From the NCBI RefSeq assembly GCF_001294575.1, contig NZ_CP012676.1, forward strand, positions 2,356,001 through 2,420,000: 64,000 nt of DNA, read 5' to 3'. This document shows positions 20,756 through 64,000 of the stretch, in pieces; the stretch's first letter is position 1, and every line of letters begins with the position of its first letter. The translations under genes were made by a program, and so were the position numbers. The stretch is from Pseudomonas versuta (GTDB taxonomy: Bacteria > Pseudomonadota > Gammaproteobacteria > Pseudomonadales > Pseudomonadaceae). The notes under the pieces are model-generated. The model saw nothing but the letters and a program-made list of their open reading frames with translations. It was not told the DNA's origin and ran no database searches.

Positions 20756-21511
20756 TCAGACACAGGCCGCCTTGCCGGGCGGCCTGACCTTCAACGGGCA
20801 ATTGCCACACAGCTCAAGCTCGGGCAGCAGGTAACGCACGCAGCAGACCTTGCGCTCGCGGCGCAGGGTCGGCTGGCCCTGTTCGTCGTGAACCGGCAGG
20901 TACTGCACCGGCTGGAACAGCGGATTGCGACTGCCATCGGGGCGGGTTCGGGTGTCCAGCAGAATGCGGCCCGCAGCCAGGCGCTCGGCGGGCATCCCGG
21001 CCCTGGCCATGAGGTTGAGCAAGTTTTCGAAGTAGTTGCCGGCATTGCTCCACAGCACCTTGGGAGACAGCTTGACCTGGCTGGCGATGGCTTGGAACAG
21101 CGGTTGCAAGTGGTCGTCCAGCAAGCCCGAGAACAGCTCGAACGGATCACTGACATCGGCCGCGAACGGCTCGCCCTTGCCAGACAGGCGAAACGCCTGG
21201 GGCAGATACCCCTCGTCCAGCACCACCGCGGTGTCGTGGAGGGACAGCGGCAGGCGCCAGCGCAGCAATAGCGTGGCGCCCATCACCGGTGGCAACAGCT
21301 TGACGATGTAGTGCTTGGCCCACAACGACGCCAGAGCCCGGCGGTCATCACCGTTATAGCGCTGAGCAAAGCCGCCCAATACGTCGCCGAAGGCGGCGGG
21401 CGCCAGCAGCCGGTCCAGGGGCATGCCCGGACGAGGATCGTCGGCCAGCACCAACACCTCGCGGTAGGCTTCAAATTCACCGCGAAACAGCGGTGCTAGC
21501 ACGTCGATCAT
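20756..21511 (-). CDS. fhuF: FhuF-like ferric-siderophore reductase, [2Fe-2S] protein
   Basis: A 251-residue FhuF-family protein thought to reduce ferric hydroxamate siderophores in the cytoplasm and so release iron. The C-terminus carries the family cluster-binding cysteines as CCVRYLL...CGNCPL (Cys-Cys-x10-Cys-x2-Cys), here CC, ten residues, C, two residues, C. The central part includes WSNAGNYFENLL and an ARG-like LAAGRILLDT segment common to the family. It is the last gene of the leftward siderophore operon, 90 bp after the ornithine hydroxylase, and ends 23 bp from the convergent FhuC-like gene. Confidence 0.88.
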   Translation of the reverse strand: MIDVLAPLFRGEFEAYREVLVLADDPRPGMPLDRLLAPAAFGDVLGGFAQRYNGDDRRALASLWAKHYIVKLLPPVMGATLLLRWRLPLSLHDTAVVLDEGYLPQAFRLSGKGEPFAADVSDPFELFSGLLDDHLQPLFQAIASQVKLSPKVLWSNAGNYFENLLNLMARAGMPAERLAAGRILLDTRTRPDGSRNPLFQPVQYLPVHDEQGQPTLRRERKVCCVRYLLPELELCGNCPLKVRPPGKAACV

Positions 21512-21601
21512 CAGCCCCTGGCACCCTTGGTCACGTAAAAAGGTAAATGAGAAACAGCATCATTCACCCAGCATACCCGATCAGCCGCCGCTATTCAGCC
21601 A

Positions 21602-22951
21602 TCAGGCCGAGACGCTGTGCAGGGCCCGTGCCTCGTGAAGCGCGTGGGACTGACTAACGCCCTCCAGGCGCTGCTCCAGGGCGGCGGCGATTTCCCCGGA
21701 GCGGGCCGGCAGCACAGACAACAGAGTGTCGGAGAGGCCATGGGAATGCTGACTGAAACCCTGGATAAACACTGGCGTTTCCAGCTCCGGGCGCGCCAGC
21801 AGTTGATAGTCGCGATCGACCCTGAAATCGTCCAGATAGTCCTTGAGCGGCGCCAGCAGTTCACGATGGGAGCGGCGTTCGTAGCCCGTCGCCAGGATCA
21901 CCGCATCGTAGCGCCGCGCCTCGGTACTGCCGGTGGCCAGGTCGCGCAGCTGCAATTGCACGCGGCCATCCACATCACTGGCGCTTTCGATAATGCGCCG
22001 GCAGAGAAAAGCGTGGCGCTCGATGCCGCTGACTTTCTGGCGATAGAGGATGGCGTAGATACGCTCGATCAGGTCCAGGTCCACCACCGAGTAGTTGGTG
22101 TTGTGGTACTCGCGGATCAGCCGCTCGCGCTCGGTTTCCGGCTGATTGAACACCAGGTCGGTGTAATCGGGACCGAAGATCTCGTTGACGAACGGGCTGT
22201 CGTCGGCGGGCTTGAGCACGGCCGCGCGCAGGATCATGTCGACCTGCACGTTGGGGAAGTTGTCACTGAGGTCGATAAAGGCTTCTGCGGCGCTCTGCCC
22301 GGCGCCCACCACGGCAATACGCATCGGCTCGCCACGGCTGCACGCCTGGGTGGCCATGGCCGACAGGTAGCGCGCATGGTGAAACACTCGCGGGTCATCC
22401 TTGAACCCGGCAAACGCCGGGGGAATTTTCGGCGTACCGCCGGTGCTGACGATCACCGAGCGGGTCTGGCGGCTCACTTCGCAACCTTGCTGATTCTGGC
22501 TGATCACATTCAGCCGCTGCACCCGGCCGTCCGCTTCGATCACCGGCTCGACCCGCAGCACCTGCTCGCCATAGCGGCTCTGCCCGGCGAACTGCGCGGC
22601 GACCCAGCGCAGGTAATCGTTGTACTCCATGCGGCACGGATAGAAGGTGCCCAGGTTGATGAAATCCACCAGCCGACCATGGGCCTTGAGGTAGTTGACG
22701 AACGAGAAACGGCTGGACGGGTTGCGCAGGGTCACCAGGTCCTTGAGAAACGAAATCTGCAATTCGCTCTGGGCCACCAGCGTGTTGCCATGCCAGTTGT
22801 AGTCGGGCTGGCGTTCCAGGAACAGCGCATCGAAGGCCTTGCCGCCCTGCTCCGCGCGCTCTTGCAGGGCAATGGCCAGGGCCAGGTTGGAAGGGCCGAA
22901 GCCGATGCCGATCAGGTCGTGGGGGGCCGTCGGGTTGAAGTGCTGGGTCAT
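21602..22951 (-). CDS. pvdA: L-ornithine N5-monooxygenase (PvdA-like)
   Basis: A 449-residue flavin-dependent N-hydroxylase. FAD binding is marked by GIGFGPSNLALA near residues 16-27, the substrate/flavin region by NWHGNTLVAQSELQISFLKD and NPSSRFSFVNYL, NADPH binding by VVGAGQSAAE near residue 216, and the C-terminal ATGYERR motif is present. Length and these blocks match P. aeruginosa PvdA (about 443 residues) better than lysine hydroxylases such as IucD. It converts ornithine to N5-hydroxyornithine, the precursor of the hydroxamate ligand, which the acetyltransferase at 62291 would then acetylate. It follows the terminal NRPS gene by 73 bp. Confidence 0.95.
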   Translation of the reverse strand: MTQHFNPTAPHDLIGIGFGPSNLALAIALQERAEQGGKAFDALFLERQPDYNWHGNTLVAQSELQISFLKDLVTLRNPSSRFSFVNYLKAHGRLVDFINLGTFYPCRMEYNDYLRWVAAQFAGQSRYGEQVLRVEPVIEADGRVQRLNVISQNQQGCEVSRQTRSVIVSTGGTPKIPPAFAGFKDDPRVFHHARYLSAMATQACSRGEPMRIAVVGAGQSAAEAFIDLSDNFPNVQVDMILRAAVLKPADDSPFVNEIFGPDYTDLVFNQPETERERLIREYHNTNYSVVDLDLIERIYAILYRQKVSGIERHAFLCRRIIESASDVDGRVQLQLRDLATGSTEARRYDAVILATGYERRSHRELLAPLKDYLDDFRVDRDYQLLARPELETPVFIQGFSQHSHGLSDTLLSVLPARSGEIAAALEQRLEGVSQSHALHEARALHSVSA

Positions 22952-23024
22952 GTGACCGATTCCTTCCAGTAGAGGGTGAGAGAGCGGTGGCCGGAACCGG
23001 GTCCGGCCGCTGGAGAATGTGTCC

Positions 23025-26000
23025 TTAGAAGACGCTTGCGGCCTCGGCGAATTTAACGCCCTCTGGCTGCCGGTTTACGTCGAGGGCTGCCAGTGCCCGG
23101 GCAAGATCGGCCATGAAGACCGGGTGACGGATAATGTCCAGATGCTGTGCACCCGCCACACAGCGCTGCTCGATCACCTGCACCAGCGCGCTCCAGTCAC
23201 GCAGGCGCTCGCTGCGGGTCAGGGAATCGGCGGCCTGCCAGACATGGGCAGCCACCGGCACGGGTGCGTGCACATGGCGGGCGGCTTTGAGGCGCTTGTC
23301 GAGCAAGGCCCACTGTTCGAATTCCCGGGACAGCAAGTCCGGTCCGTCGCTGGGCAATTGCCCGTCGTGGGCCAGCACATGCTCGGTCAGGGCATCGCGC
23401 TCGCGCTCGTCCATCAGCGCGAACAATTGCCCCCACTCAAGCGCCATCGCCGAGCGGGCCAGCCAGCTGTCCAGCAGCGGTTGTGCGCGAGCACGTGCCG
23501 CCTCGTCGGGGATCTGGCGCGGATGAAACGGCACCGATTCGAACACGTCCACCAGCCCAAGAAAGTCGACCTGCGCCCGCCCTTGCAGCAGACGCGCAGT
23601 TTCCAGCGCCAGCTCGCCGCCGGATGACCAGCCGAGCAAGGCGCAGCGCCCGCCCTTGACCGTGCGCGCGATGTAGTCGGCGTACTCCAGGGCCAGCGCG
23701 GGCAGATCATAGCCACGCCAGCGTTGCTCGGTGTAGACATGGCTGACGAATCCATACACCGGCCGGGTGCCGCCCAGGGCATCCACCAGAGGCTTGAATT
23801 CGCTGCTGTTGACGATCAGCCCCGGCAGGCAGAACAGCGGCACACCGCTCCCCGAACGCGACAGGAACACCACCTCCGGATCGATCACTGGCGGTGGCGC
23901 CAGACGTTCGGCCAGGGCCGCGAGGCTCGGGGCATTAAGCAAATCGGCCAGGGTCAGCTTGCGCTCGCCTTGCAGGCCCTGCTTGCGGATGCGCGACAAC
24001 AGTTTAAGGCTCAGCAGCGAGTCGCCGCCCAGTTCGCCAAAGGAGGCGTCGCGGGCAATAACCGCGTGCCCCAACAGGTCGCGCCACAATTGGGCCAGTG
24101 CTTCTTCCACCGCGCCACGAGGGCCCTCGCCCTGGGGCCGGACTGTTTGCACCAGGCTCAGGGCGTGACGGTCCAGCTTGCCGTTGGCCGTCAGCGGCAG
24201 TTGCTCCAGCAATGTCCAGTGAGATGGCACCAGGACGTCCGGCAACTGGCTGGCCAGAGACTGGCGCAGGGTTTCCACAGCGATGCCCGGCTCCAGCACC
24301 AGACAGGCATGCAATTGATCGCCGCCATCCTCACCGGGCATGCCGATCACAGCTGCCTCCCGCACACCGGGCAGGCGCCGCAGCGCAGCGCTGACTTCGC
24401 CGGGTTCGACCCGATAACCACGGATTTTCACCTGATCATCGCTGCGCCCCAGGTATTCCAGGCTGCCGTCATCCAGCCGGCGCACCCGATCGCCGCTGCG
24501 ATACAGGCGTGTACCGGGTGCGCCGAACGGGTCCGGCACATAGCGCTCGGCCGTCAGGCCCGGGCGCCCCGCATAGCCCTGGGTGACACCGGGGCCGCCC
24601 AGGTACAGCTCACCGGTTACGCCGTTACCCACCGGGTTGAGCCAGGCATCCAGCACCCGGGCCTCAACTCCGGCCAGCGCTGTGCCGACAGGCAAGGTGC
24701 GGGCGCGCAGGCGATCGGCATGGGCGGCGTCCTGGCACAGCGCACCCACCGTGGTCTCGGTGGGGCCGTAATGGTTGAACACGCGCAAGTGCGGGGCAAG
24801 CTGGCGAATATGCTCCAGCAGCTCCCAGGAAGTGGCTTCGCCGCCCAGGATCAATGTGTGCCGTGGCAGCACCCGGGCCGGGTCGCGGGCGTTGAGCAAG
24901 GCCTGCAAATGACTGGGGGTGATTTTCAGCACGTCGGCCCCCTGTTCGCTTTGCCAATGGGCAAAGGCGTCGGGGTCGAAGGCCTGTTCATCGGCGGCCA
25001 GGTGCAGCAGACCGCCCTGGCTCAGGGCGCTGAACAGCACCGTATGGCCGAGGTCGGCGGCCACCGTCGAAACCAGCGCGAAGCTGCTGCGCGCCGGCAA
25101 TTGCAGACGCTGGCTCAGCCCCGCGACATAGGCGGCCAGGTTGCCGCGACTGGCGACTACGGCCTTGGGCATGCCACTGGAGCCGGAGGTATAGATCAGG
25201 TACGCGGGCAACTGCGGCACGTGGCTCGGCCAGGCCGCCAGCGCCGCGGGCAGCGACAGGTCCGGCTCCAGCGCCAGCCAGTCCAGACCCGCCACCCCGG
25301 GGTCCGCCCCCAATACCAGGCACGCCCCGCTGTCAGCCAACACCGCCGTGCGGCGTTCGGCCGGCCAGCGCGGGTCCACAGGCACGTAGGCGGCACCACA
25401 CTTGAGTGCGGCCAGAATGCCGATCACCAGCCCCGGCGTACGCCCGGTCAACAGCGCCACCCGGGCTCCGGGGCCGACGCCCCGGGCCAGCAGATGTTGG
25501 CCAAGGGCCTCGGCGGCGCGCTCGATATCGCTGCGAGAGAAGGTCATCCCGTTACAGGTCAGGGCGGCGGCGTCAGGGCTGAGCCGATGCTGGCGCTGCC
25601 AGGCCGCCAGTACGTCTTCCGTGGCAACTGGCGATGCATCGGCGCGTTCTTCAGGCCTGACCGCGAGTGCCAGCAAGGGCTGCTCCGGCGCCAGACTCAC
25701 GGCGTCGGCCAGTACCCGCAAATCATCCGCCAGGGCCTCGATACGCTCGGCATCGAACAGGTCGCGGGCATAGGCGATCAGCACTTCGATGCCATCGGCG
25801 CGGTCGGTGAAGTCCACGCTGAGGTCGAAATGCACCTCCCCCGCCACCAGCCCGTCCAGACTCATGGACAGCCCGGCAAAGCGCTGCGGGCGACTGGCCG
25901 ACTGCTCGGTGCACTTGACCTGGAACAGCGGATGGGTGCCCGCCTCGCGGGGAGGCGCCAGGGCTTGCAAGAGCTGGTCGAACGGCAACTGGGAATGCTC

Positions 26001-27083
26001 CTGGGCCTCGAGCAGGGTGCCGCGCACCTGATGCAGCAGCGCAGTAAAGTTGCAGCGCTCATCGACCCGGTTGCTCAACACGCTCAGGGTGGTGAAGTAG
26101 CCCACCACCCGCTGGGTTTCAGCCCGCGAGCGATTGGCCAGCGGTGAGCCGATGCGCACTCGCTCGGCGCCACTCTGGCGGGCGAGCAACAGGTTGAGCA
26201 GCGCCAGCATGGCCATGAAGGTTGTCGAACCGTTGGCCTTGGCGAGGCTGCGCAAGCGCTGGCTGGTGTCTGCTGGCAGCTGCAGACGCACACTGGCACC
26301 GCGTGAGTCTCGATCCGCGCTGCGCGGGCGGTCCATCGCCAGCGCCAGAGGGGTGTGATCGTCACCCAGTTGTTTGCGCCAATAATCCAGTTGCCGGGTT
26401 TGCTCCCCCGCATCCAGCCAGCGCTGTTGCCAGCCGGCATAATCGGCGTATTGCACAGTCAGCGCAGGCCATTGCGCGACCTGCCCCTGACAGCGCGCAG
26501 CGTAGGCCGTGGCCAGGTCTTCGATAATCAGGCCGATGGACCAGCCGTCAGCGAGGATGTGATGCAGGACGATCACCAGCCGGTGCTGCTGCGGATCGAG
26601 GCGATGCAGTTCCAGACGCAGCGCCGGTCCGGCCTGCAGGTCGAATGCCTGGCACGTCAGGGCCTGGGCCCGTTGACGCGACGCGGCCTCGTCCAGTTCC
26701 AGGTAGGCCAGTGGCTGGAACTGTGCCGGGTTGACCCGTTGCTGCGGTTCGCCGTCGGCGTCCTGGGTAAAGGACGTACGCAGCGCTTCGTGGCGGGCGA
26801 GCAAGTCATTGCAAGCCTGCTCCAGAGCGTCGACATCCAGCAGCCCCCCCAGACGCAGCACGCCCGCCAGGTTATAGGCCGGGCTGTCGGGTTCGCTCTG
26901 CCAGGCAATCCACAAGCCGCGCTGGGCGGCGGAAAGCGGTGAGGCATCCACGCGGGGCAGCGCGACCATCGGCAGGTCGGTAAAGCGGATGCCGTTTTCC
27001 TCGAGTTTGGCCAGAAAAGCCTGGCGCCGCTCAGGGGACAGTTCGGCGAAGCGCCGGGCGATTTGATGCGGATCAATACTCAT
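23025..27083 (-). CDS. NRPS, termination module C-A(Asp)-T-TE
   Basis: A 1352-residue NRPS. Domains in order: C (HHILADGWS near 174), A ([12 protein letters not shown] near 635), T (LGGDSLLSL near 1020) and a type I thioesterase (GWSSGGELALE near 1155) that releases the peptide. Lining up the A-domain pocket by eye against GrsA gives D-L-T-K-I-G-H-V-G, the pattern for aspartate. Start MSIDPHQ at 27083 follows the upstream TGA by 1 bp with a gagg ribosome site; an ORF start at 27122 would overlap. No hydroxylase is fused here, so any hydroxylation of this Asp must come in trans. The C domain is of the type accepting an L-configured donor, consistent with the preceding module lacking E. Confidence 0.93.
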   Translation of the reverse strand: MSIDPHQIARRFAELSPERRQAFLAKLEENGIRFTDLPMVALPRVDASPLSAAQRGLWIAWQSEPDSPAYNLAGVLRLGGLLDVDALEQACNDLLARHEALRTSFTQDADGEPQQRVNPAQFQPLAYLELDEAASRQRAQALTCQAFDLQAGPALRLELHRLDPQQHRLVIVLHHILADGWSIGLIIEDLATAYAARCQGQVAQWPALTVQYADYAGWQQRWLDAGEQTRQLDYWRKQLGDDHTPLALAMDRPRSADRDSRGASVRLQLPADTSQRLRSLAKANGSTTFMAMLALLNLLLARQSGAERVRIGSPLANRSRAETQRVVGYFTTLSVLSNRVDERCNFTALLHQVRGTLLEAQEHSQLPFDQLLQALAPPREAGTHPLFQVKCTEQSASRPQRFAGLSMSLDGLVAGEVHFDLSVDFTDRADGIEVLIAYARDLFDAERIEALADDLRVLADAVSLAPEQPLLALAVRPEERADASPVATEDVLAAWQRQHRLSPDAAALTCNGMTFSRSDIERAAEALGQHLLARGVGPGARVALLTGRTPGLVIGILAALKCGAAYVPVDPRWPAERRTAVLADSGACLVLGADPGVAGLDWLALEPDLSLPAALAAWPSHVPQLPAYLIYTSGSSGMPKAVVASRGNLAAYVAGLSQRLQLPARSSFALVSTVAADLGHTVLFSALSQGGLLHLAADEQAFDPDAFAHWQSEQGADVLKITPSHLQALLNARDPARVLPRHTLILGGEATSWELLEHIRQLAPHLRVFNHYGPTETTVGALCQDAAHADRLRARTLPVGTALAGVEARVLDAWLNPVGNGVTGELYLGGPGVTQGYAGRPGLTAERYVPDPFGAPGTRLYRSGDRVRRLDDGSLEYLGRSDDQVKIRGYRVEPGEVSAALRRLPGVREAAVIGMPGEDGGDQLHACLVLEPGIAVETLRQSLASQLPDVLVPSHWTLLEQLPLTANGKLDRHALSLVQTVRPQGEGPRGAVEEALAQLWRDLLGHAVIARDASFGELGGDSLLSLKLLSRIRKQGLQGERKLTLADLLNAPSLAALAERLAPPPVIDPEVVFLSRSGSGVPLFCLPGLIVNSSEFKPLVDALGGTRPVYGFVSHVYTEQRWRGYDLPALALEYADYIARTVKGGRCALLGWSSGGELALETARLLQGRAQVDFLGLVDVFESVPFHPRQIPDEAARARAQPLLDSWLARSAMALEWGQLFALMDERERDALTEHVLAHDGQLPSDGPDLLSREFEQWALLDKRLKAARHVHAPVPVAAHVWQAADSLTRSERLRDWSALVQVIEQRCVAGAQHLDIIRHPVFMADLARALAALDVNRQPEGVKFAEAASVF

Positions 27084-27084
27084 C

Positions 27085-30000
27085 TCAAACCTCGATTTCA
27101 TCCAGCCAGCGGGCCATGTCATCCAGGCGCTCGCGATGCTCGACCGCCGCGGCGAACAAATCGCCCGGCAGCTGTAGGGCCAACTTCTGCACGGTGACGT
27201 GATCGAAGAAGGCGTTGATTGGCAGGTGACAGCCGTGGCGTTGTTGCAGTTGGGCGCGCACTTGCATGACGCTCAGCGAGTGCCCGCCCAGCTCGAAGAA
27301 ACTGTCGGTGACGCCGATCTGCTCCAGCCCCAGAACTTCAAGCCAGATGTCGACCAGCGCCCGCTCGGCATCGCTGCCCGGCGCTACATGGCCGCTGCTC
27401 GCGCCCGGCCCTTCGGGTTGCGGCAACTGTTTGCGGTCCAGCTTGCCGTTGGCCGAGAGCGGCATCGCCGGCAATTGCAGCAAGCGCCACGGCACCATGT
27501 ATTCAGGAACGTGCTGCCCCAGGTGAAATTTAAGCGCGGCTTCGTCGGCCTCGGTGCCGACCCAGTAACCGAGCAGTTGATTGTCCCGCGCCACCACCAC
27601 GCATTCGCGCACCGCGGCATGGGCCAGCAACACTGCTTCGATCTCGCCCAGCTCAATGCGCTGGCCGCGCAACTTGACCTGATGATCGAGGCGCCCCAGG
27701 TAGTCGATGGCACCATCGGCACGCCAGCGCGCCAGGTCGCCACTGCGGTACATCCGTTCGCCGGGCTCACCATAGGGATTGGCGACAAAGCGTTCGGCAG
27801 TCAGCCCCGGACGGCCCAGATAACCCCGGGCCAGATTGACCCCGGCGATGTACAACTCCCCTGCCACGCCCACCGGCACCGGGTTGAGATCGGCATCGAG
27901 AATATGGATTTGCGTATTGGCGATCGGACGTCCGATCGGCACGCTGCTGCCGTCCTCGCGGCAGGCCCAGGAGGTGACGTCGATGGCCGCTTCGGTCGGG
28001 CCGTAGAGGTTGTGCAACTCGCTGGCGGTTTGCTCCAGCACCTGACGCTGCAACTCCGCAGGCAGGGCTTCGCCACTGCATATGATCCGTTTCAGCGAAG
28101 TACAACGCGCCAGTTCACCCGCCGAGACGAACGCCTGCAGCATCGACGGCACGAAGTGCAGCGTGGTGATGCCGTGCTCGACGATCAGTTCACGCAAGGC
28201 CTGCGGATCACGGTGAGCACCGGGTGGCGCCATCACCAGTGCCGCGCCGCTGAGCAGCGGCCAGAAGAACTCCCAGACCGAGACGTCGAAGCTGTAAGGG
28301 GTCTTTTGCAGCACGCGGTCGCTGGCGTTCAAAGCGTATTCAGCCTGCATCCATTGCAGTCGATTGAGCAGCCCGGCGTGACGGTTACCGACGGCCTTGG
28401 GCTTACCGGTGGAGCCGGAGGTGTACAGGCAATAGACGAGGTTTTCCGGGCAGATATTGACCTGCGGTGCGGTCTGCGGCTGAGTCGCCAGCGCCAGGTT
28501 TTCCAGTGCATGCGGCGGCACGCAAGCAGCGCCGGACCAACTGTCCAGCAGGTGTGCTTGAGTCAGCAACAACGGGCTGCCGCTGTCGGCCAGCATCCCT
28601 TGCAAGCGCTCTCGCGGGTGGTCCGGGTCCAGCGGCAGATACGCGCCACCGGCCTTGATCACCCCCAACAGTGCAACCACCAGTTCCACGGAGCGCTCGG
28701 CGCACACCGCCACCGGCACGTCCGGGCCTACGCCCCGCACCTGCAACCAGTGCGCCAGCTGATTGGCCCGGGCATCCAGTTCGCCATAGCTCAGACGCGT
28801 ATCGCCAAATACCAGTGCCAGCGCATCCGGAGTGGCCCGCACCTGCTCCGCGATCAGGGCTGGCAGGCTCGCGTACTGTGCATAGTCGACCCCGGTGGCA
28901 TTCCACGTTTGAATCTGGCGGGTCTCGCCCGGGCTCAGCAATGTCAGGCTGGCCAAGGGCCGGGAGCTGTCTTCGAACTGTTGCAGCAGCCCGCCAAGGT
29001 GTTCGCTGAAGCGCACCACGTCGGCCTCGGTAAAGGCATCCAGGCGATAGCTGAATTCGATCTGCAACTGCGCACCGGCATGGATCACCAGGGTCAGCGG
29101 GTAGTGCGTGGTTTCGTGGCGCTGAAGCGGCGAGAACCGCAAGCCGCTGGCCTCGCCAAGGGCCTGTTCCACCGGATAGTTTTCGAACACCAGCAAGGTG
29201 TCGAACAGGGCCTGTCCGCCCTGCCCGGCCCAGCCCTGAATCTCGAACAGAGGCGTATGTTCATGCTCGCGCAACGCGCTGTTGAAAGCCTGCAACTGGC
29301 GCAGCCAGTCGCCCAGAGGTTGTTGCGCCGGTGGCGTCTGAATCACCGGCAAGGTGTTGATGAACAGCCCCAGGGTACGTTCGGCATCCGCCAGTTGCGC
29401 CGGACGTCCGGCCACCGTGGCGCCAAACGCCACGGTGGCCTGCCCGCTGTAGCGTTGCAGCAACAGGCTCCAGGCACCTTGCACCAGCGTATTGAGGGTC
29501 ACCCGCTCGCGGCGGGCAATGGCGATCAGGCGGGCCGTCTGCTGCGCGTCGCACTGCCAGTGGTGCTGGCGGTGACCGCTGCCAAGGGCCACGCCGTCCA
29601 CACTAGTGGCCAGCAGAGTCGGCGCGTCCAGCCCGGCCAGACGCTCACGCCAGAAGGCCTGACACTGCGCCGGGTCACGCTGTTGCAGCCACTGCACGTA
29701 ATCGATGTAACGCCCTGCCACTTCGCCGGGTGGTGTTGCGCGGTAGTGCTGCAAAACCTCGGCGATCAGCCGCGACGAGCTCCAGCCATCGAGCAACAAG
29801 TGATGACTGCTCAAAATCAATTGGTAGCGCTGTTCTTCCAGGCGTACCAGCAACACCCGCAGCAAAGGCGCCTGGCCAAGGTCGAAACCGTCCTCGCGCT
29901 CTTCGCGGGCCAGATCCTCGACCGCCGTGACCCGGTCGCTGCGCTCGCGCCAGTCAAGCAGGCGCACCGGCGACGGCACGCTGCGGCGCACCGCTTGCAA

Positions 30001-47120: not shown

Positions 47121-47138
47121 GGTCAATCCAGTGCGGAA

Positions 47139-55862: not shown

Positions 55863-56621
55863 TCAACCCAGGGCGTGCAATGAAGGGAGCGAGAGACGCG
55901 GTGCCTGCTCGCGTAAATCCAGGCACAGCCTGAGCAGGCGCTCGAGGAAATCGGCGCGCTGGCGGTGCAGGAAAAAATGCCCGCCGGTGCACATTTCAAG
56001 ATGGAACGGGCCGCTGCATTCGGCTTCCCAGGTCGTCAGGGCACTGACCGCGACACTGTCGTCGCGCCCGCCGAACACATGCAGCGCGCAAGGCAAAGGG
56101 CTGCGCTGAGGCGGCCGATAGCGGTCACCGAGGAGAAAATCGGCGCGCAGCACCGGCAGCACCATGGCCAGCATTTCAGGGTCATCGAACACAGCCCGGG
56201 GCGTGCCGTCGAGGCGATGCAACTCGGCGATCAGTTCGGCATCGGTCATGGGCCGGGCATCGGGATTGCCATCGCGCTGGCCGGGGGCAGTACTGGCGAC
56301 GGCGATCAGCGCGCCGGGCGGCTCGACCCCCAGAGCGACCAGGGCATGGGCCACCTCCAGGGCCACCACGCCGCCGATGCTATGGCCGAGCATCAGGTAA
56401 GGGCCGTTGATCATCGGCGCCAGCTCTGCCGCCAGGCTTGCAGCCAGGGCGGGCATATCCACCTGCAACGGTTCATCGCCACGCCAGCCGTGGCCGGGCA
56501 ATTCGACCGGTTGCACATCGAGCCAGGCCGGCAAGGCTGCACGCCACGGAGCGAAAGCCATGGCGCTCGCGCCGGAACAGGCGAAGCAGAAAAGGCGGAT
56601 GGGATGGGGGGCGACGGACAC
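55863..56621 (-). CDS. Type II thioesterase of the siderophore NRPS (PvdG/GrsT-like)
   Basis: A 252-residue alpha/beta hydrolase that clears wrongly primed or stalled carrier domains. The start is GTG at 56621 with an aaggagat ribosome site. FCFACSGASAMAFAPW near the N-terminus and the nucleophile elbow GHSIGG are typical, followed by DAELIAELHRLDGT and the catalytic-His block CTGGHFFLH near the C-terminus. It is the first gene of the NRPS operon, preceded by a Fur-like and a PvdS-type promoter-like element. Confidence 0.92.
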   Translation of the reverse strand: MSVAPHPIRLFCFACSGASAMAFAPWRAALPAWLDVQPVELPGHGWRGDEPLQVDMPALAASLAAELAPMINGPYLMLGHSIGGVVALEVAHALVALGVEPPGALIAVASTAPGQRDGNPDARPMTDAELIAELHRLDGTPRAVFDDPEMLAMVLPVLRADFLLGDRYRPPQRSPLPCALHVFGGRDDSVAVSALTTWEAECSGPFHLEMCTGGHFFLHRQRADFLERLLRLCLDLREQAPRLSLPSLHALG

Positions 56622-56754: not shown

Positions 56755-57438
56755 CGGAACCCGTAGTCGCTGACGAGCCGTGCGAGGCTGTAATCGGGCA
56801 ACGCCCGTAGCGGCTAAGACCGCGGTGTACCTGACACACCGGGGTGCATGATTGGCGACGGCTGCGCCGCCGATCGCAGCCTCGCAAAGCTCGTCAGCGA
56901 CTACAGGGGCGGTTGGGATTTTTGATCGGGCAACGCCCGTAAAACCTCAATCCGTGATGTACCTGACATACCGAGGGGCAAGGATTTGCGACAGCGACGG
57001 TGTCGATCTCCCTGCGGCAAGCAATACCTGTAGTCGCTGACGAGCTTTGCGAGGCTGTGATCGGGCAACGCCCGTAAAACCTCAATCCGTGAGGTACCTG
57101 ACATACCGAGGGGCAAGGATTTGCGACATGGACGGTGTCGACCTCCCTGCGGCAAGCAATACCTGTAGTCGCTGACGAGCTTTGCGAGGCTGTGATCGGG
57201 CAACGCCCGCAATCCCTCAACCCGTGAGGTACCTGACATACCGAGGGGCAAGGATTTGCGACAGCGACGGTGTCGACCTCCCTGCGGCAAGCAATACCTG
57301 TAGTCGCTGACGAGCTTTGCGAGGCTGTGATCGGGCAACGCCCGCAATCCCTCAACCCAGGATATGCCTGACACACCGGGGTGCATGATTGACGACGGCT
57401 GCGCCGCCGATCGCAGCCTCGTTCCTCGTCAGCGACTA
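56755..57438. repeat. 135-bp tandem repeat array with REP-like palindromes
   Basis: The string gggcaacgccc recurs at 56796, 56928, 57063, 57198 and 57333, that is with spacings of 132, 135, 135 and 135 bp. Each unit contains gtagtcgctgacgagc...gcgaggctgtgatcg, which in the two outer, more diverged ends appears as its reverse complement (cgatcgcagcctcg...cgtcagcgactac). So the array is a run of direct repeats bounded by inverted REP-like elements. Unit length is a multiple of three, and this keeps long open frames on the minus strand (56894-57386), which I regard as non-coding. It fills most of the gap between the exporter and thioesterase genes. Confidence 0.92.
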
Positions 57439-59043
57439 CCGGCTGACGATCTGGCCGCGCTCGAGTTTGATCAACTGGTCGGCCAGGTGGAAGTAACGGT
57501 CATCGTGGGAGATGACCAGCAGCGTCTTGCCCTGGGCACGCAGCTCAGGCAGCAGTTCGCAATAGAACACTTCGCGAAACGCCGGGTCCTGGTCAGCGGC
57601 CCATTCGTCGAAGATGATCACCGGCCGCCCTTCAAGGCAGGCAACGATCAACGCCAGGCGCTTGCGCTGGCCCTGGGACAGTTCACGGGTTGAAAACGAA
57701 CCGTTGCTGACGCTGACCTTGTGGTCCAGGTGCAGCTTGCTCAGCCATTGCGCCGCCTGGCTGTCCAGGCTGGAGTCCGGCGCTTCGAGCAGGGTGTCGA
57801 ACAGGTGGAAGTCCGAGAAAACCGCCGAAAACAGCTGGCGATAATCGTCCCGCTCTTGCGCTGCCACCGGCCGGCCATCGACCCGCACTTCGCCGCTTTC
57901 CGGCACGTACAGGCCGGCAATCAGCTTGGCCAGGGTGGTCTTGCCGCTGCCGTTGCCACCGACCAGAAAGGTAATCTGGCCGGGCTTGAGGGTCAGCGCC
58001 ACCGGGCCAAGGGTGAATACTTCATCCTCGCGCTCGCTGAAATAGCCATGGGTCAGGCCATTCAGCTCCAGGGTTACACCCTTGGCCTGGACGGCAGGTG
58101 CCGGGGTCTGCGAGCAGGTTTCAGCCTGCAATTGCGCAAGCGTCGCTTCAATGCGCGCACTGGCGACTCGCGCCTGGCTCATCTGTGGCAGGTTCAGCAG
58201 TACGCCTTCCAGCGGGCCCATCATGTACAGGAAGACCATCACGTAACCGGTGATCACGGCAGTATCGGAAGGCACCCACAGGCGCAGGAACAGCACCAGG
58301 CCAATCAGTATCAGAAACAGCAGGCGGCCCCAGCCACCGGTAATGGCAAACAGCATCAGGCCCTTGGCCCGGTTGCGGCGTACTTGCTCGACAGCGCTGA
58401 CCAGCACTTCATCAAGAAAACGCCGGGCCTTGGAGCGGTTGAGCTTGAGTTCCTTGGCCCCCGAGACCATGGCGTCGAAATGACCGAAGAGTTCGTCCTG
58501 GCTGGCACCGGCCTTGCGGAAGTACTGCAGCATGTGGGAATGGCACAGGTGATAGCCCAGGGAGCCAAGGCCGATGGCCAGCACTGAAACCAGAAAAATG
58601 ACCCAGGACAGGTACGCCAGGTACCCCAGACACCCGAGCACCACGACGGCACTGGTGACCAGCATCGGGAAGCCGGTGAAGAAGTTCGACAAGGTGGTGG
58701 TGTCATCGGCCAGGGCCGCCTGGATCCGCCCGCGTCCGGCCTTTTCCAGCCCGCGCAGGGGCGCCGCGACTACATGCCGTGAAATGTGCATGCGCAGGGT
58801 CGCCAGGCCTTGTTGACTGAGGTAGGCGAACAACGCCCTGGACAGCACCTGGCTGCCCATCACCAGGGCTATCACCAGCACGAAAGGCAGCGCGTAGCTG
58901 GCCAGGCCGTCCAGTGGAGCATTCAGGGCCTGGTTGATCAGCGCCACCAGCAACACGTTGGCCAGGCCGCAGACCAGGCTTGCGCCAATGGCCACGGCCA
59001 GCCGTGTGTGCGAGGTGCGAACCAGCATACCGAACAATGACAT
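57436..59043 (-). CDS. pvdE: PvdE-like siderophore-peptide ABC exporter (fused TM-ATPase)
   Basis: A 535-residue half transporter of the cyclic-peptide exporter family (PvdE, SyrD). Six membrane spans fill roughly residues 1-300; the ATPase follows with Walker A VGGNGSGKTT, signature LSQGQRKRLAL, Walker B PVIIFDEWAADQDP and switch His in VISHDDRYF. PvdE moves acylated pyoverdine precursor into the periplasm; here it should export the acyl peptide siderophore across the inner membrane. The TAG stop at 57436-57438 is part of the neighbouring REP-like repeat. A PvdS-type element lies upstream at 59116-59140. Confidence 0.93.
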   Translation of the reverse strand: MSLFGMLVRTSHTRLAVAIGASLVCGLANVLLVALINQALNAPLDGLASYALPFVLVIALVMGSQVLSRALFAYLSQQGLATLRMHISRHVVAAPLRGLEKAGRGRIQAALADDTTTLSNFFTGFPMLVTSAVVVLGCLGYLAYLSWVIFLVSVLAIGLGSLGYHLCHSHMLQYFRKAGASQDELFGHFDAMVSGAKELKLNRSKARRFLDEVLVSAVEQVRRNRAKGLMLFAITGGWGRLLFLILIGLVLFLRLWVPSDTAVITGYVMVFLYMMGPLEGVLLNLPQMSQARVASARIEATLAQLQAETCSQTPAPAVQAKGVTLELNGLTHGYFSEREDEVFTLGPVALTLKPGQITFLVGGNGSGKTTLAKLIAGLYVPESGEVRVDGRPVAAQERDDYRQLFSAVFSDFHLFDTLLEAPDSSLDSQAAQWLSKLHLDHKVSVSNGSFSTRELSQGQRKRLALIVACLEGRPVIIFDEWAADQDPAFREVFYCELLPELRAQGKTLLVISHDDRYFHLADQLIKLERGQIVSR

Positions 59044-59115
59044 GGTGTCTCCTTGGGGGTCGGCTGGCGCAGGCCGTCACGCCGGCGCCATCGATAAATT
59101 GGGTTCCCGGAATAG

Positions 59116-59140: not shown

Positions 59141-59180
59141 GACGCGGCATTATTGCAGGTATTGGGAATCAGGTGCTGTT

Positions 59181-59199
59181 GCTATAGACTCTCATTCTC
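59181..59199. promoter_or_regulatory. Weak candidate Fur box before the FhuD-like gene
   Basis: The bases gctatagactctcattctc match the Fur consensus at 12 of 19 positions by eye, best in the right half (tcattctc). It lies 38 bp before the FhuD-like start and in the shared spacer with the exporter gene. Confidence 0.35.
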
Positions 59200-59236
59200 G
59201 CCTGGAGGCGACCTGTCTGCTTCGGAGTCTGTTGCA

Positions 59237-60148
59237 ATGCCCATTACCCGCCGTCGGGCCCTGACCGGCCTCGCGTTGTTGCCGGTCGCGCTGTGCGGCT
59301 TGCCTGTGGTCCGCGCTGGCGACCCGACATTGCCGAAAGTCGATATTGTCAGTTTCGAGCCTGCCCTTACCGAAAGCCTGCTCGGCCTAGGGGTGGCACC
59401 CCGGGCGGTGGTCAACGCCGGGTTCTATCGCGAGTTCGTCGCCAGCCCGCAATTGCCCGGAGATGTCATCGACCTGGGCCCGAGCATCGAGCCCAACCTG
59501 GAGTACCTGCAACGCCTGGCGCCCGAGCTGATCATCGGCACTTCGTGGCAGCTGGAAGGTACCTTGCTGTCGCGCATCGCGCCGTTGCGCACCTTCGATA
59601 TCTATACCGCGAACGCACAGCCCTATCGCAATGCCGGCCAGGTATTGCTGGACCTCGGGGCTCTGGTGGAGCGGCGCGCCGAGGCACAGGCGTTGCTGGA
59701 GCAGACCGACCGCCTGCTGGAGCAGTTGCGCGTCAGGCTGGCACCTGTCAGCCATCGCCCGGTGTACATCGCGCGCCTCAACCCGGACGGTCGCCACCTG
59801 TTGCTGTTCGGTGCCAAAGGCATGTATCAGGCAGTGCTCGAGCGCCTGGGTTTACGCAATGCCTATCAGGGCCGGACCAATGCCTGGGGTGGCAGCCCCG
59901 CGGTGGGCATCGAGACCCTGCTTGAGCAGCCCGACGCCTCGCTGCTGTATTACACCAACCCCCGCGAAGCTCTGGCCGCGCAGCGCCGGCTGGATAACAG
60001 TCCGATCTGGCGCGCCTTGCCGATGATCCGCGAAGGCCGCGCCCTGGGGCTGCCACGGTTCTACCCCAGCGGCGGCTTGCTGACCGCGCAACGCCTGGCC
60101 CTGTCCATCACCGAACAACTGCTCGCCATGGAAACCAAGCATGCCTGA
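59237..60148 (+). CDS. fhuD: Periplasmic ferric-siderophore-binding protein (FhuD-like)
   Basis: A 303-residue class III binding protein for an iron-hydroxamate-type importer. The N-terminus TRRRALTGLALLPVALCGL is a twin-arginine-like signal resembling that of E. coli FhuD. The mature part shows the helical-backbone family features: VDIVSFEPALTESLLGLGV, PNLEYLQRLAPELIIGTS and VGIETLLEQPDASLLYY. The ATG at 59237 is chosen because it gives this signal peptide and has a cggag site; the open frame extends further upstream without support. It overlaps the permease start by 8 bp. Confidence 0.92.
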   Translation: MPITRRRALTGLALLPVALCGLPVVRAGDPTLPKVDIVSFEPALTESLLGLGVAPRAVVNAGFYREFVASPQLPGDVIDLGPSIEPNLEYLQRLAPELIIGTSWQLEGTLLSRIAPLRTFDIYTANAQPYRNAGQVLLDLGALVERRAEAQALLEQTDRLLEQLRVRLAPVSHRPVYIARLNPDGRHLLLFGAKGMYQAVLERLGLRNAYQGRTNAWGGSPAVGIETLLEQPDASLLYYTNPREALAAQRRLDNSPIWRALPMIREGRALGLPRFYPSGGLLTAQRLALSITEQLLAMETKHA

Positions 60149-62129
60149 CCACTCTTCACGCCTGCGCCGCCAACCGGTCTGGCTGGCCCTCGGGCTGCTA
60201 TTGATTGCCTTGGCCCTGAGCGTCCACCAGGGTAATTCGCTGCTGGCCCAAGTTTCATGGAGCACCGCCATCGGCCCGGCGTCGCCCGACGATCTGCCCG
60301 CCCTGCTGGTGCGCTACAGCTTTTTGCCGCGCCTGGTGATCAGCCTGCTGGTGGGCGCGGCGCTGGCCCTGGCCGGGGTGATATTCCAGCAAGTGCTGCG
60401 CAACCCCATTGCCGAACCGACCACCCTGGGCGTTGCTTCAGGTGCCTACCTGGCCCTTTCCGCCTGCGCGATCTATGCCCCGGGCCTGCTCGATGGCGGC
60501 CAGGAAGGCGTGGCCCTGGCCGGGGCCACCCTGGGCATGCTCGCGGTGCTGGGCCTGGCCTGGAGCCGGCGCCTGTCGCCGGTGGCGCTGATTCTCTCCG
60601 GGCTGATCATCAACTTGTATTGCGGGACCCTGAGCACCTTGCTGGTGCTGGCCAACCACGAGGTCTTGAGCAATCTGTTCATCTGGCAATCGGGTTCGCT
60701 GAACCAGAACAGCTGGCAGGACGTGTATCACCTGGCGCCGCGCCTTGGCGTGGCCGCACTGCTCGCCGCGCTGCTGGCCCGTCCGCTGCAACTGCTGGGC
60801 CTCAACGATGCAGCGGCCGGCAGCCTGGGCCTGTCGCCCAACCGCCTGCGCCTGATGGCTCTGGCCGTGGCCGTGGCATTGAGTGCCAGCGCCATTGCCA
60901 GTGTCGGGGTGATCGGCTTCGTCGGCCTGGCCGCTCCCGCCCTGGCCCGCCTGGCCGGTGCCCGCACCCTGCGCCAGCGTTTGCTCTGGGCACCCTTGTT
61001 CGGCGCCCTGCTGCTGTTGCTGGCCGATCAGGTGGTGCAGGCATTGGCGCCGCTGCTGGGGGGTGAAATTCCCACCGGCATCCTGACTGCGTTCCTCGGT
61101 GCGCCGCTGCTGCTGGTGCTGCTGACCCGCCTGCATGAAACCCGCCTCAACCCGCCAGCCCCGCGCGCCAGCGCTCACGTCGCGCCGCTAAAGCGCATCG
61201 GCTGGATATTGCTCGCGGCACTGGCCATTTCCCTGTTCCTCGCACTGACCTGGGGCCGCGGCCCGGATGGCTGGTATTTCAGCAGCGGGGCAGCATTCGA
61301 CGCCCTGCTGCCATGGCGCGCGCCACGGGTAGCCGCGGCCTTTGGCGCCGGTATCCTGCTGGCCTTGGCCGGTACCTTGATGCAACGCATGACCGGCAAC
61401 CCCATGGCCAGCCCGGAAATGCTCGGGGTGAGTTCCGGTGCCGCACTGGGCGGCATTTTTGCCCTGCTGCTGGTGCCCGGCTTCAGCCCGCTGGTGCTGT
61501 TGCTGGCCGCCACTTTGGGCGCCCTGCTCGCCTTGCTGGCCATCGTCGCCCTGAGCTGGCGCAGCGCCTTCGCACCGGACCGCATGCTGCTCACCGGCGT
61601 GGCCCTGAGCACGCTGCTCAATGCCTTTGCCGCGCTGTTCATGGTCAGCGGCGATTCGCGGGTGCTGCTGATGCTCAGCTGGATGACCGGCTCGACCTAT
61701 CGCATCGACGCCAGCCAGGCAGTCCTTATCTGTGCCCTGGCCGCGCTGTTCCTGCTGGTCACGCCGTTGTGCAACCGCTGGCTGGCGATCATGCCACTGG
61801 GCGCCGAACGCACCCGGGCACTGGGGATTTCACTGGGCGGCAGCCGTCTGGTGTTGCTGCTGCTCACTGCGGTGATGACCGCAGCAGCCACCCTGGTGGT
61901 CGGGCCGCTGAGTTTTGTCGGCCTGATCGCACCGCACATGGCACGCTTGCTGGGCGCACAACGGCCGGTCGCGCAATTGATGCTTTCGGCCCTGCTGGGC
62001 GGCACGCTGCTGGTGCTGGCTGACTGGCTGGGGCGCAACCTGGTGTTCCCGTGGCAAATCCCCGCCGGGATGTTCGCCACGTTCATTGGCGGCCCGTATT
62101 TCATGTGGTTGCTGGCGCGTAAACGCTGA
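60141..62129 (+). CDS. fhuB: Fused ferric-siderophore ABC permease (FhuB-like, two FecCD halves)
   Basis: A 662-residue inner-membrane protein made of two homologous FecCD halves, as in E. coli FhuB (about 660 residues). Each half repeats the same marks: FLPRLVISLLVGAALALAGVIFQQVLRNPIAEPTTLGV-like in half 1 (about 65-105) and AFGAGILLALAGTLMQRMTGNPMASPEMLGV-like in half 2, then SVGVIGFVGLAAPALAR and GPLSFVGLIAPHMAR. About 18-20 spans. With the FhuD-like protein and the distant FhuC-like ATPase it completes a FhuBCD importer for the ferric siderophore. Confidence 0.95.
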   Translation: MPDHSSRLRRQPVWLALGLLLIALALSVHQGNSLLAQVSWSTAIGPASPDDLPALLVRYSFLPRLVISLLVGAALALAGVIFQQVLRNPIAEPTTLGVASGAYLALSACAIYAPGLLDGGQEGVALAGATLGMLAVLGLAWSRRLSPVALILSGLIINLYCGTLSTLLVLANHEVLSNLFIWQSGSLNQNSWQDVYHLAPRLGVAALLAALLARPLQLLGLNDAAAGSLGLSPNRLRLMALAVAVALSASAIASVGVIGFVGLAAPALARLAGARTLRQRLLWAPLFGALLLLLADQVVQALAPLLGGEIPTGILTAFLGAPLLLVLLTRLHETRLNPPAPRASAHVAPLKRIGWILLAALAISLFLALTWGRGPDGWYFSSGAAFDALLPWRAPRVAAAFGAGILLALAGTLMQRMTGNPMASPEMLGVSSGAALGGIFALLLVPGFSPLVLLLAATLGALLALLAIVALSWRSAFAPDRMLLTGVALSTLLNAFAALFMVSGDSRVLLMLSWMTGSTYRIDASQAVLICALAALFLLVTPLCNRWLAIMPLGAERTRALGISLGGSRLVLLLLTAVMTAAATLVVGPLSFVGLIAPHMARLLGAQRPVAQLMLSALLGGTLLVLADWLGRNLVFPWQIPAGMFATFIGGPYFMWLLARKR

Positions 62130-62164
62130 GTCGGGACCACGCAAAGGCTGGTTCGAAATAAAAT

Positions 62165-62189
62165 CTAAATAGTTCTGATTCCCATTCGT
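62165..62189 (+). promoter_or_regulatory. Iron-starvation (PvdS-type) promoter element before the acetyltransferase
   Basis: CTAAAT at 62165-62170, exactly 16 bases, then CGT at 62187-62189: a full match to (G/C)TAAAT-N16-CGT. The leader to the ATG at 62291 is about 100 bases. This is the best of the three such elements in the window. Confidence 0.65.
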
Positions 62190-62290
62190 TACAGTTTTAC
62201 CTAAGCTTCGCCTGGATGAACTGCTCCGGCCACTGCCGGGCAGTTGTTTTCGGGCCGGCATACGCGAGAAAACACTAACGGAGAAGCATC

Positions 62291-63310
62291 ATGACCACGC
62301 CAAACTTCACCCTTCTTCTGGCTGACGGCCGCCGCGTGATCGCCCGGATGGCGGACGATGGTAATGCCAGCCTGACCATCGAGGGTGTTGCCCCCGTGTA
62401 TTTCCGCCGCCAGGACGCCCATGTGCAACTGGAAAACCTGTCCGAGGCGTTCCCGGTCAGTGGCCTGCTGGCGCTGCTGGGCCAGGTCTTCTGCAATTCG
62501 TCTCGCGTCCCGCTGCTGGAAGTCAGTGCCCCGCTCTCCCTCGACCGCGCACGCGATGCCATACGCCAGGGGGTGTTCGACACCCTGCTTGGCCATGACG
62601 GCCACACGGCGCGCCTGGCCTGCTCGCGCAGCAGTTTCTGGCAACACCCGCTGCCCTGGCTTACCACCAGCTCCGCCGCCGGCATGCCGCTGCGCTACAC
62701 CTTCAGCGGCGAAAAGCGCCACCCGCAGCGGCCACCGATCCCCCACGGCGAGGTCTATCGCCGCGAACTGCCCGGCCTCAATACCACCTTCAGCTTGCGT
62801 ACCGTGGACATCGCTCAGGACCTTGAGCGTTTCAACCGCTGGATGAACCTGGAGCAGGTCGCGTTTTTCTGGGAGCAGACCGGCAGCCTGGATGAGCATG
62901 CCGCGTACCTGCAACAGATGCTTGACGACCCGCGGGTGTTGCCACTGATCGGTAGCTACAACGACGAGCCGTTTGCCTATTTCGAGATCTACTGGTGCAA
63001 GGAAGACCGCATCGCCCCCTATTACGATGCGCAGGACCATGACCGCGGCTGGCACGTGGTGGTCGGCGAGAGCAAGCACCAGAGCGCGGGCAAGCTCAAG
63101 GGCTGGTTCCGCTCGCTCATGCACTACATGTTCATCGACGAGCCGCGCACCCAGCGCATTCTCGGCGAACCGCGGATCGACCATACCCGCCAGATCGGTT
63201 TCCTTGAGTCCCAGGGTTTCGGCAGGCTCAAGACCATCACCCTGGCGCACAAGAAAGCCGCCCTGCTGCGCCTGGAACGCGAGACTTTCTTCGACGACTT
63301 CCACCCTTGA
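62291..63310 (+). CDS. Siderophore hydroxyornithine N-acetyltransferase (IucB/AlcB-type GNAT)
   Basis: A 339-residue protein whose C-terminal half is the IucB/RhbD/AlcB acyltransferase domain: FNRWMNLEQVAFFWEQTGS, then YFEIYWCKEDRIAPYYDA, DRGWHVVVGE and RILGEPRIDHTRQIGFLESQGF. These enzymes acetylate the N-hydroxylated side chain of ornithine or lysine with acetyl-CoA, making the hydroxamate. With the PvdA-like hydroxylase this gives N5-acetyl-N5-hydroxyornithine. The N-terminal about 130 residues are less conserved. No PvdF-type formyltransferase is seen in the window, so acetyl rather than formyl is expected. A ggag site precedes the ATG. Confidence 0.9.
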   Translation: MTTPNFTLLLADGRRVIARMADDGNASLTIEGVAPVYFRRQDAHVQLENLSEAFPVSGLLALLGQVFCNSSRVPLLEVSAPLSLDRARDAIRQGVFDTLLGHDGHTARLACSRSSFWQHPLPWLTTSSAAGMPLRYTFSGEKRHPQRPPIPHGEVYRRELPGLNTTFSLRTVDIAQDLERFNRWMNLEQVAFFWEQTGSLDEHAAYLQQMLDDPRVLPLIGSYNDEPFAYFEIYWCKEDRIAPYYDAQDHDRGWHVVVGESKHQSAGKLKGWFRSLMHYMFIDEPRTQRILGEPRIDHTRQIGFLESQGFGRLKTITLAHKKAALLRLERETFFDDFHP

Positions 63311-63408
63311 CCGACCGCAATACGGCCGCGTGCTGCCTGATGGGGATCGGGCAGTGCGCGGCTTGCTTCATACCTACTAAAAAAATCACTCCACACTCCG
63401 GAACCTCC

Positions 63409-64000
63409 ATGCACGCAAAGAACCTCTTCGCCTACCATCCCTTGGTGCTGGCCCTGTGTCTCAGTGGCCTGCCACTGAGCGCAGCCCTCGCCGCCGACCA
63501 ACCCAATGCCGTCGCTCCTGGGGGGGCGCTGGAGCTGCAGGAAACCAACATCAATGCCAAAGCAGTCGAAAACCCCACCGGCCATGTGCGCGGCCCGGTG
63601 GCGACGCGCAGCACCAGCGCGAGCAAGACCGACGCAGCGATCAAGGAAATCCCGCAGTCGGTGTCGATCATCACCCGCGATGAAATGGACGAACGCAAGG
63701 CCGACACTCTGGCCGAAGTCCTGAGCTTCACCCCGGGGGTGATTACCCAGCCAGGCGGTTTCAGCCGTGTGGGGGATGACTTCGTGATCCGTGGTTTCAA
63801 CGTGGGTTCGGGCACCGGCGGTATTCTGCGCGACGGCATGAAACTGCAAGGCAGCGTGTATGACGGCGGTATCGAACCCTACGGCCTGGAGCGCGTGGAA
63901 GTGGTCAAGGGCGCCTCTTCGGTGCTGTACGGCCAGCTGTCGCCCGGCGGCCTGATCAACACCATCACCAAGCGCCCGACGGATGTCCCGCTGCATGAAG
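63409..64000 (+). CDS. TonB-dependent siderophore receptor, N-terminal part, cut by window end
   Basis: From the ATG at 63409 an open frame runs to the end of the window (197 codons visible). A signal peptide (YHPLVLALCLSGLPLSAALAA) is followed directly by the plug domain: IKEIPQSVSIITRDEMDERKADTLAEVLSFTPGV-like start, DDFVIRGFNVG, GLERVEVVKGASSVLYGQLSPGGLIN. This is the FhuA/FpvA-type siderophore receptor layout. No STN signalling domain is visible before the plug, unlike the FecA-like receptor at 15720, so this one is probably not a direct signaller. Its place after the acetyltransferase makes it the likely receptor for the siderophore made here. Confidence 0.92.
   Translation, partial: MHAKNLFAYHPLVLALCLSGLPLSAALAADQPNAVAPGGALELQETNINAKAVENPTGHVRGPVATRSTSASKTDAAIKEIPQSVSIITRDEMDERKADTLAEVLSFTPGVITQPGGFSRVGDDFVIRGFNVGSGTGGILRDGMKLQGSVYDGGIEPYGLERVEVVKGASSVLYGQLSPGGLINTITKRPTDVPLHE

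Follow-up and report, generated by a model that had tools for sequence, protein, structure and literature searches.

Probable lactuchelin gene cluster in Pseudomonas versuta: predicted assembly line, orthologues and related loci

Which siderophore is made by the large nonribosomal peptide synthetase (NRPS) locus of Pseudomonas versuta, and has this siderophore already been described? To answer this question, the locus was examined at positions 20756..64000 of a 64,000-nt stretch of contig NZ_CP012676.1 (the window), together with the flanking genome, which consists of one contig of 5,149,788 bases. An earlier reading of the raw sequence (the original prediction) had proposed that these positions contain a complete locus for an unrecognised, open-chain acyl-heptapeptide siderophore of a Pseudomonas. 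The relatedness of the genes bore out the host genus. The comparison described below indicates that the locus, from a Pseudomonas closely related to P. paraversuta, is the lactuchelin cluster (ltcA–ltcK and fhuBCDF), and that its product would be as published, a reading to which we assign a probability of about 0.94. Lactuchelins were published in January 2026 as lipopeptide siderophores of P. lactucae, which inhibit Xanthomonas campestris (Chesneau et al., PMC12904278), and the gene names used here are taken from that paper. The product is already known, and the peptide itself is not new.

Genes were assigned using Pfam domain scans and NCBIfam/TIGR models, the scores of which were compared with the model cutoffs (Table 1). 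The domain scans agreed with the earlier view that a FAAL-type loading step is followed by seven modules over four NRPS genes: the LtcD loading protein precedes seven amino-acid adenylation (A) domains in LtcE–LtcH. The pocket residues of the A domains were read against the PheA ruler. The three codes obtained are DLTKIGHVG, DVWHISLID and DGEGSGGVT, which we take to mean Asp, Ser and a hydroxyornithine type, respectively, and they give the order Asp in LtcE; Ser and Ser in LtcF; Ser, hydroxyornithine type and Ser in LtcG; and Asp in LtcH. Modules 2, 4 and 5 are each followed by an epimerase-type HHxxxD motif, which was recognised by its position behind the carrier domain. Hence, the predicted chain is acyl-Asp-(D)Ser-Ser-(D)Ser-(D)hydroxyornithine-Ser-Asp, which is the order of the original prediction with its residue X assigned as hydroxyornithine. 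The residue order Asp-Ser-Ser-Ser-Orn-Ser-Asp is the same as the published lactuchelin sequence (PMC12904278), which is also given in PMC13037486. In this way, a siderophore peptide predicted from the bare DNA sequence agreed with the one that had been established independently from an orthologous cluster, while the same reading fails at the acyl group and the cyclisation.

The accessory genes were also consistent with a lactuchelin cluster. Two aspartyl hydroxylases of the TauD type were found as expected, one fused to LtcD and one stand-alone (LtcC); they are 42.6% identical, and both retain the HxE motif. The ornithine N-hydroxylase, exporter, importer, reductase and receptor were all identified by Pfam or NCBIfam models, and a search of the genome with LtcI returned one match, LtcI itself. 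Thus, the locus contains the features of the lactuchelin cluster, which are five NRPS genes (ltcD–ltcH), FAAL/CAL loading and seven amino-acid modules, and it has ltcA, ltcB, ltcC, ltcI, ltcJ, ltcK and fhuBCDF together, as in the lactuchelin cluster. An acyl-heptapeptide with two β-hydroxyaspartates and one hydroxamate, which had been proposed from the sequence, matches the published product of the orthologous cluster. The genome scan reported 12 condensation-domain stretches, every one of which falls within the cluster, and thus no pyoverdine NRPS was found. A pyoverdine, which the original prediction had also discarded, was rejected, because no condensation domain, and hence no PvdL-type chromophore NRPS, was found outside the locus; no search was directed at a PvdF-like formyltransferase.

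Genome contigs were scanned with LtcD, which gave 29 loci. The best-segment identities were 94% for P. paraversuta, 89% for P. typographi, 88% for a P. marginalis-labelled strain, 88% for P. californiensis and 86% for P. lactucae MAFF 301380. The comparison covered 16 genes (ltc, fhu and mbtH). P. paraversuta has all 16 with unchanged order and 88–98% identity (95.8% for fhuC). At 78–93% identity, P. typographi also has 16 of 16, and 15 were found in the P. marginalis-labelled strain (mbtH was not in the fetched stretch). In P. lactucae MAFF 301380, 14 of the 16 genes were found at about 76–94% identity over the assembled and fetched parts, which cover only residues 3817–4104 of ltcG and about 1–506 and 795–2094 of ltcF, and mbtH was not in those pieces. 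The cluster of this strain is split on four contigs, which carry ltcA–D, ltcJ, ltcK, fhuB and fhuD; ltcE and the start of ltcF; the middle of ltcF; and the end of ltcG, ltcH, fhuF and fhuC. The A codes, read by a script in three complete Pseudomonas clusters, agreed in 19 of 21 domains; in the other two (LtcE of P. paraversuta and LtcH of the P. marginalis-labelled strain) the script misaligned the first residues, and these readings were not used. The four Ser codes of P. typographi have L in place of I. A search of plasmids with ltcD returned eight records, none covering 80% of the gene. An estimate of nucleotide identity was set aside, since the repeats among the NRPS segments inflate its aligned length to more than that of the window.

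In P. lactucae, insertion mutants of ltcD, ltcE, ltcG, ltcJ and pvdS no longer gave a siderophore signal on chrome azurol S (CAS) plates, and the published evidence covers the requirement for the cluster, the peptide sequence, the 3-hydroxybutanoyl group, the Fe and Al complexes and the need for pvdS (PMC12904278). The acyl chains of the published series range from C8 to C16. The cluster was reported in 10 Pseudomonas species, with 53 strains in total; P. lactucae, P. paraveronii, P. versuta, P. paraversuta, P. californiensis, P. coleopterorum and P. typographi are named, and these carriers are described as having no pyoverdine cluster (PMC12904278). The P. versuta locus resembles that of the producer P. 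lactucae CFBP 13502 in gene content, module order, residues, transport genes, the lack of pyoverdine and the link to PvdS. On the other hand, mbtH is located beside the receptor gene in P. versuta, while in CFBP 13502 it is outside the biosynthetic gene cluster, and one ornithine hydroxylase was found in P. versuta, while two were reported for CFBP 13502 (PMC12904278).

The hydroxamate of lactuchelin bears a 3-hydroxybutanoyl group, which closes the ring of a cyclic depsipeptide, and not the open chain with acetyl-hydroxyornithine that had been predicted (PMC12904278). The published formula C43H70N8O21, with [M-H]- at 1033.4591, gave a recalculated value of 1033.4583 and fits the cyclic 3-hydroxybutanoyl compound with a C14:1 chain. 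The calculated masses of the hydroxybutyryl-hydroxyornithine-Ser-hydroxyaspartate and hydroxybutyryl-hydroxyornithine-Ser fragments after loss of water, 417.162 and 286.140, match the published fragments at m/z 417.16 and 286.14. The corresponding acetyl fragments would be expected at 373.135 and 242.114, or at 391.146 and 260.124 without water loss, and do not fit. Hence, the fragments indicate that the hydroxamate acyl group of the published product is 3-hydroxybutanoyl. A distinct but close siderophore specific to P. versuta, with the same heptapeptide in a linear form and acetyl-hydroxyornithine, could find some support in the Acetyltransf_8 family of LtcJ, which includes acetyltransferases, and in the fact that a linear acetyl compound with a C16:2 chain is isomeric with the published formula. 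However, besides the misfit of the acetyl fragments, LtcJ is 89% identical to its counterpart in MAFF 301380, and the product of CFBP 13502 carries 3-hydroxybutanoyl (PMC12904278), which makes such a compound very unlikely. That the siderophore is entirely unrecognised and lacks any characterised relative, which would agree with the lack of a product name in family and structure libraries, can practically be dismissed, because PMC12904278 describes a characterised cluster of the same type with the same module order and peptide and names P. versuta as well as near species among the carriers.

Several observations weigh against the assignment of the locus to lactuchelin. The ltcI gene was not found between ltcH and fhuF in MAFF 301380 (L070:830-5901), where the best match of LtcI is 66% identical and lies on a different contig, and the clusters are not identical in this respect. 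The orthology with P. lactucae was established on the gene sequences of MAFF 301380, while the published product is that of CFBP 13502, and the product of the P. versuta strain is assigned by orthology. The formula by itself is isomeric for the cyclic 3-hydroxybutanoyl/C14:1 and the linear acetyl/C16:2 compounds, and the choice of 3-hydroxybutanoyl rests on the published fragments, in which the water loss was assigned by us, and on the published nuclear magnetic resonance (NMR) data. The lactuchelin paper labels LtcJ an acetyltransferase, and the ring closure is given there without direct heteronuclear multiple bond correlations (HMBC), the ring being assigned partly by comparison with imaqobactin (PMC12904278). 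Additionally, the published mass of the ferric complex, 1086.4011, is about 0.03 above the calculated 1086.3697; the mass difference given in the same paper (1033.4591 + 52.9114) leads to 1086.3705. With these points considered, we infer that the P. versuta strain would make the same product.

The properties of LtcJ were compared with those of its relatives. In the five other Pseudomonas genomes that were searched, its counterparts are 89–98% identical. Among solved structures, the transacylase SidF, which transfers a larger acyl group, scores best, with a match over residues 142–334, while MbtK, DfoC and aminoglycoside acetyltransferases score lower. Among 120 of 678 homologues listed, several bear the source name acetyl CoA:N6-hydroxylysine acetyl transferase, and the list gives no reading of acetyl versus hydroxybutyryl specificity. 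We infer that LtcJ transfers 3-hydroxybutyrate, in contrast to its label in the paper; of the acetyltransferase originally predicted, the family assignment stands, while the published product of P. lactucae argues against acetyl as the group transferred.

The biosynthesis probably proceeds as follows. The FAAL domain of LtcD would activate a fatty acid, and the acyl group would be handed to Asp on LtcE, after which LtcF, LtcG and LtcH would add (D)Ser, Ser, (D)Ser, (D)N5-acyl-N5-hydroxyornithine, Ser and Asp. Both Asp residues would be β-hydroxylated by the TauD domains of LtcD and LtcC; as to their stereochemical type (I or T), PMC7100376 assigns fused and stand-alone hydroxylases in opposite senses in different passages. 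LtcI would N-hydroxylate ornithine, and LtcJ would acylate the product, most likely with 3-hydroxybutyrate. The thioesterase of LtcH most likely releases the chain by attack of the 3-hydroxyl on the last hydroxyaspartate, which would give the published ring. Vicibactin also has 3-hydroxybutyryl on N-hydroxyornithine and is closed by an ester through this group, and the role of the LtcH thioesterase is proposed by likeness to it. The product is probably exported across the inner membrane by LtcA, and Fe(III) is probably held by the two hydroxyaspartates and the hydroxamate. The complex is probably re-imported by LtcK, FhuD, FhuB and FhuC, and would be reduced by FhuF. The export and uptake roles are also predictions in the lactuchelin paper (PMC12904278).

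The regulation of the locus was examined using the PvdS-type (iron-starvation) consensus TAAAT-N16-CGT. The exact box upstream of ltcJ is located at -125 to -127 in all five Pseudomonas clusters examined, and one-mismatch boxes, counted without a chance expectation, precede ltcB and ltcA in five of five. In the window, the exact motif occurs four times against 0.78 expected, but only one of the four is intergenic: the other three fall within genes, including two in NRPS repeats that resemble each other. The match before ltcI, present in the four clusters looked at, is in the end of ltcH. Because the exact matches are mostly in coding sequence and repeats, the number of boxes is weak evidence, and it is the conserved intergenic site before ltcJ that counts. 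In the P. versuta locus, no exact or one-mismatch box was found before mbtH, ltcC, fhuF or fhuC. The box suggests control by iron starvation, and its position before ltcJ agrees with the phenotype of the pvdS mutant (PMC12904278).

The arrangement of the genes is given in Table 1. Between 59043 and 20756, ltcA, ltcB, ltcC, the NRPS genes, ltcI and fhuF follow one another on the minus strand, while fhuC, fhuD, fhuB, ltcJ and the start of the receptor gene are on the plus strand. The locus extends beyond 20756–64000 in both directions and is not complete there as had been thought: fhuC is to the left, and the receptor gene continues to the right, where mbtH also lies. The receptor gene runs to about 65580 in window coordinates, with 231 of its 757 residues in the window (the full gene is L040:1307-3580 and encodes a plug and a barrel), and the only mbtH copy found in the genome is at about 65769–66116, about 1.8 kb past the window end.

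Table 1. Features of the P. versuta locus in window coordinates, with the evidence for each assignment
Feature	Position	Strand	Evidence
fhuC, ferric-hydroxamate ABC transporter ATPase	19899..20732	+	best NCBIfam model FhuC 404.3 bits, under cutoff 433
fhuF, ferric-siderophore reductase	20756..21511	-	Pfam FhuF, FhuF_C; TIGR03951 177.8 bits, cutoff 63.85
ltcI, ornithine N5-monooxygenase	21602..22951	-	Pfam Lys_Orn_oxgnase 367.6 bits
ltcH, C-A(Asp)-T-TE, module 7 and release	23025..27122	-	Pfam; code DLTKIGHVG
ltcG, C-A(Ser)-T-E-C-A(hydroxyornithine type)-T-E-C-A(Ser)-T, modules 4-6	27085..39399	-	Pfam; codes DVWHISLID, DGEGSGGVT, DVWHISLID
ltcF, C-A(Ser)-T-E-C-A(Ser)-T, modules 2-3	39396..47126	-	Pfam; code DVWHISLID twice
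ltcE, degenerate condensation-like domain, then A(Asp)-T, module 1	47169..50309	-	code DLTKIGHVG; partial Condensation match 65.4 bits, without HHxxxD motif
ltcD, FAAL-ACP-C-TauD loading protein	50321..54793	-	Pfam; FAAL ~54745-53555, ACP ~53017-52829, C ~52759-51455, TauD-type aspartyl hydroxylase ~51256-50411
ltcC, stand-alone TauD-type aspartyl hydroxylase	54843..55823	-	Pfam TauD 163.8 bits
ltcB, type II thioesterase	55863..56621	-	Pfam Thioesterase 138.9 bits
ltcA, cyclic-peptide/siderophore-type ABC exporter	57436..59043	-	TIGR01194 494.7 bits, cutoff 286.2
fhuD, periplasmic ferric-hydroxamate binding protein	59153..60148	+	Pfam Peripla_BP_2; best NCBIfam model FhuD 182 bits, under cutoff 252
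fhuB, permease	60141..62129	+	FhuB model 755.7 bits, cutoff 554
PvdS-type iron-starvation box TAAAT-N16-CGT, upstream of ltcJ-ltcK	62166..62189	+	exact match
ltcJ, N-hydroxyornithine acyltransferase (putatively 3-hydroxybutyryl)	62291..63310	+	Pfam Acetyltransf_8 173.8 bits
ltcK, TonB-dependent ferric-siderophore receptor	63307..64000, cut by window end	+	Pfam Plug

Related clusters were also found outside Pseudomonas. In Hansschlegelia plantiphila (L059-L061), 15 of the 16 genes have relatives within about 43 kb, the exception being fhuC. The best-aligning segments are 36–64% identical; the order of the NRPS genes is kept, while the accessory genes are rearranged. Its codes read Asp-X(DAHDSGAMT)-Ser-X'(DAEDSGGMT)-hydroxyornithine type-Ser-Asp, and its modules 2 and 5 are followed by epimerase-type motifs. 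The predicted iron-ligand residues 1, 5 and 7 are kept, while positions 2 and 4 differ from those in Pseudomonas. No exact PvdS-type box was found across 60 kb of this genome. Inquilinus limosus (L055-L058) has relatives of ltcA–E, ltcI, ltcJ and mbtH with 40–67% identity, and the motif scan recognised no NRPS modules past a short run of N. Script misreadings in Inquilinus LtcE, in FAAL domains and at three chance motif matches in Hansschlegelia were not used. In the library searched, none of the titles listed for a Hansschlegelia siderophore dealt with such a cluster, no paper came up for an Inquilinus limosus lipopeptide siderophore, and PMC12904278 mentions neither genus. It is somewhat better than an even chance that LtcJ is a 3-hydroxybutyryl-CoA transferase, that the LtcH thioesterase uses the hydroxyl of this group for the ring, and that the lactuchelin-type scaffold exists outside Pseudomonas (in H. 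plantiphila and perhaps Inquilinus) with the iron-binding positions 1, 5 and 7 kept and the spacer positions 2 and 4 changed. The related Hansschlegelia cluster and LtcJ as a hydroxybutyryltransferase are possible additions to the published work; the analysis contributes an orthologous locus from a genome in which no pyoverdine NRPS was found, the conserved PvdS-type box, a proposed role for LtcJ and an alphaproteobacterial related cluster.

Cupriachelin, taiwachelin, serobactin and potashchelin are β-hydroxyaspartate lipopeptide siderophores, which share with lactuchelin the acyl chain, hydroxyaspartate ligands, TauD hydroxylases and hydroxamate. The residue order of the first three is unlike that of lactuchelin, and vicibactin differs from it as a cyclic trihydroxamate with neither a fatty acyl chain nor hydroxyaspartate. 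Potashchelins have nine residues in a different order. Members of the corrugatin family are Pseudomonas lipopeptide siderophores too, and corrugatin itself has eight residues and a C8 chain. Other lipopeptide siderophores of Pseudomonas and its relatives were rejected, because their residue order or length differs. According to PMC12904278, the lactuchelin type of cyclisation is otherwise reported only for imaqobactin, an amphiphilic siderophore of Variovorax (PMC12904278, PMC6836290).

Some further elements were observed around the locus. A set of outer membrane factor, periplasmic adaptor and major facilitator superfamily (MFS) permease genes for efflux lies downstream of mbtH (L040:5565-9597). 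Beside fhuC, at window positions 15720–19787, there is a set of a ferric-citrate-type extracytoplasmic function (ECF) sigma factor, FecR and a FecA-like receptor, which is at the same place in P. paraversuta; it was not found in the fetched stretches of three other species, which reach only about 0.7–6.3 kb beyond fhuC. Between ltcB and ltcA there is a tandem array (56923–57358) with 3.2 copies of a 135-base unit and 96% matches. A search with the unit, in which 40 of 85 candidates were scored, reported 24 matches; among these, full units are confined to this array, while end pieces of about 22–38 bases recur across the genome, and the unit resembles a dispersed repetitive extragenic palindromic (REP)-type element.

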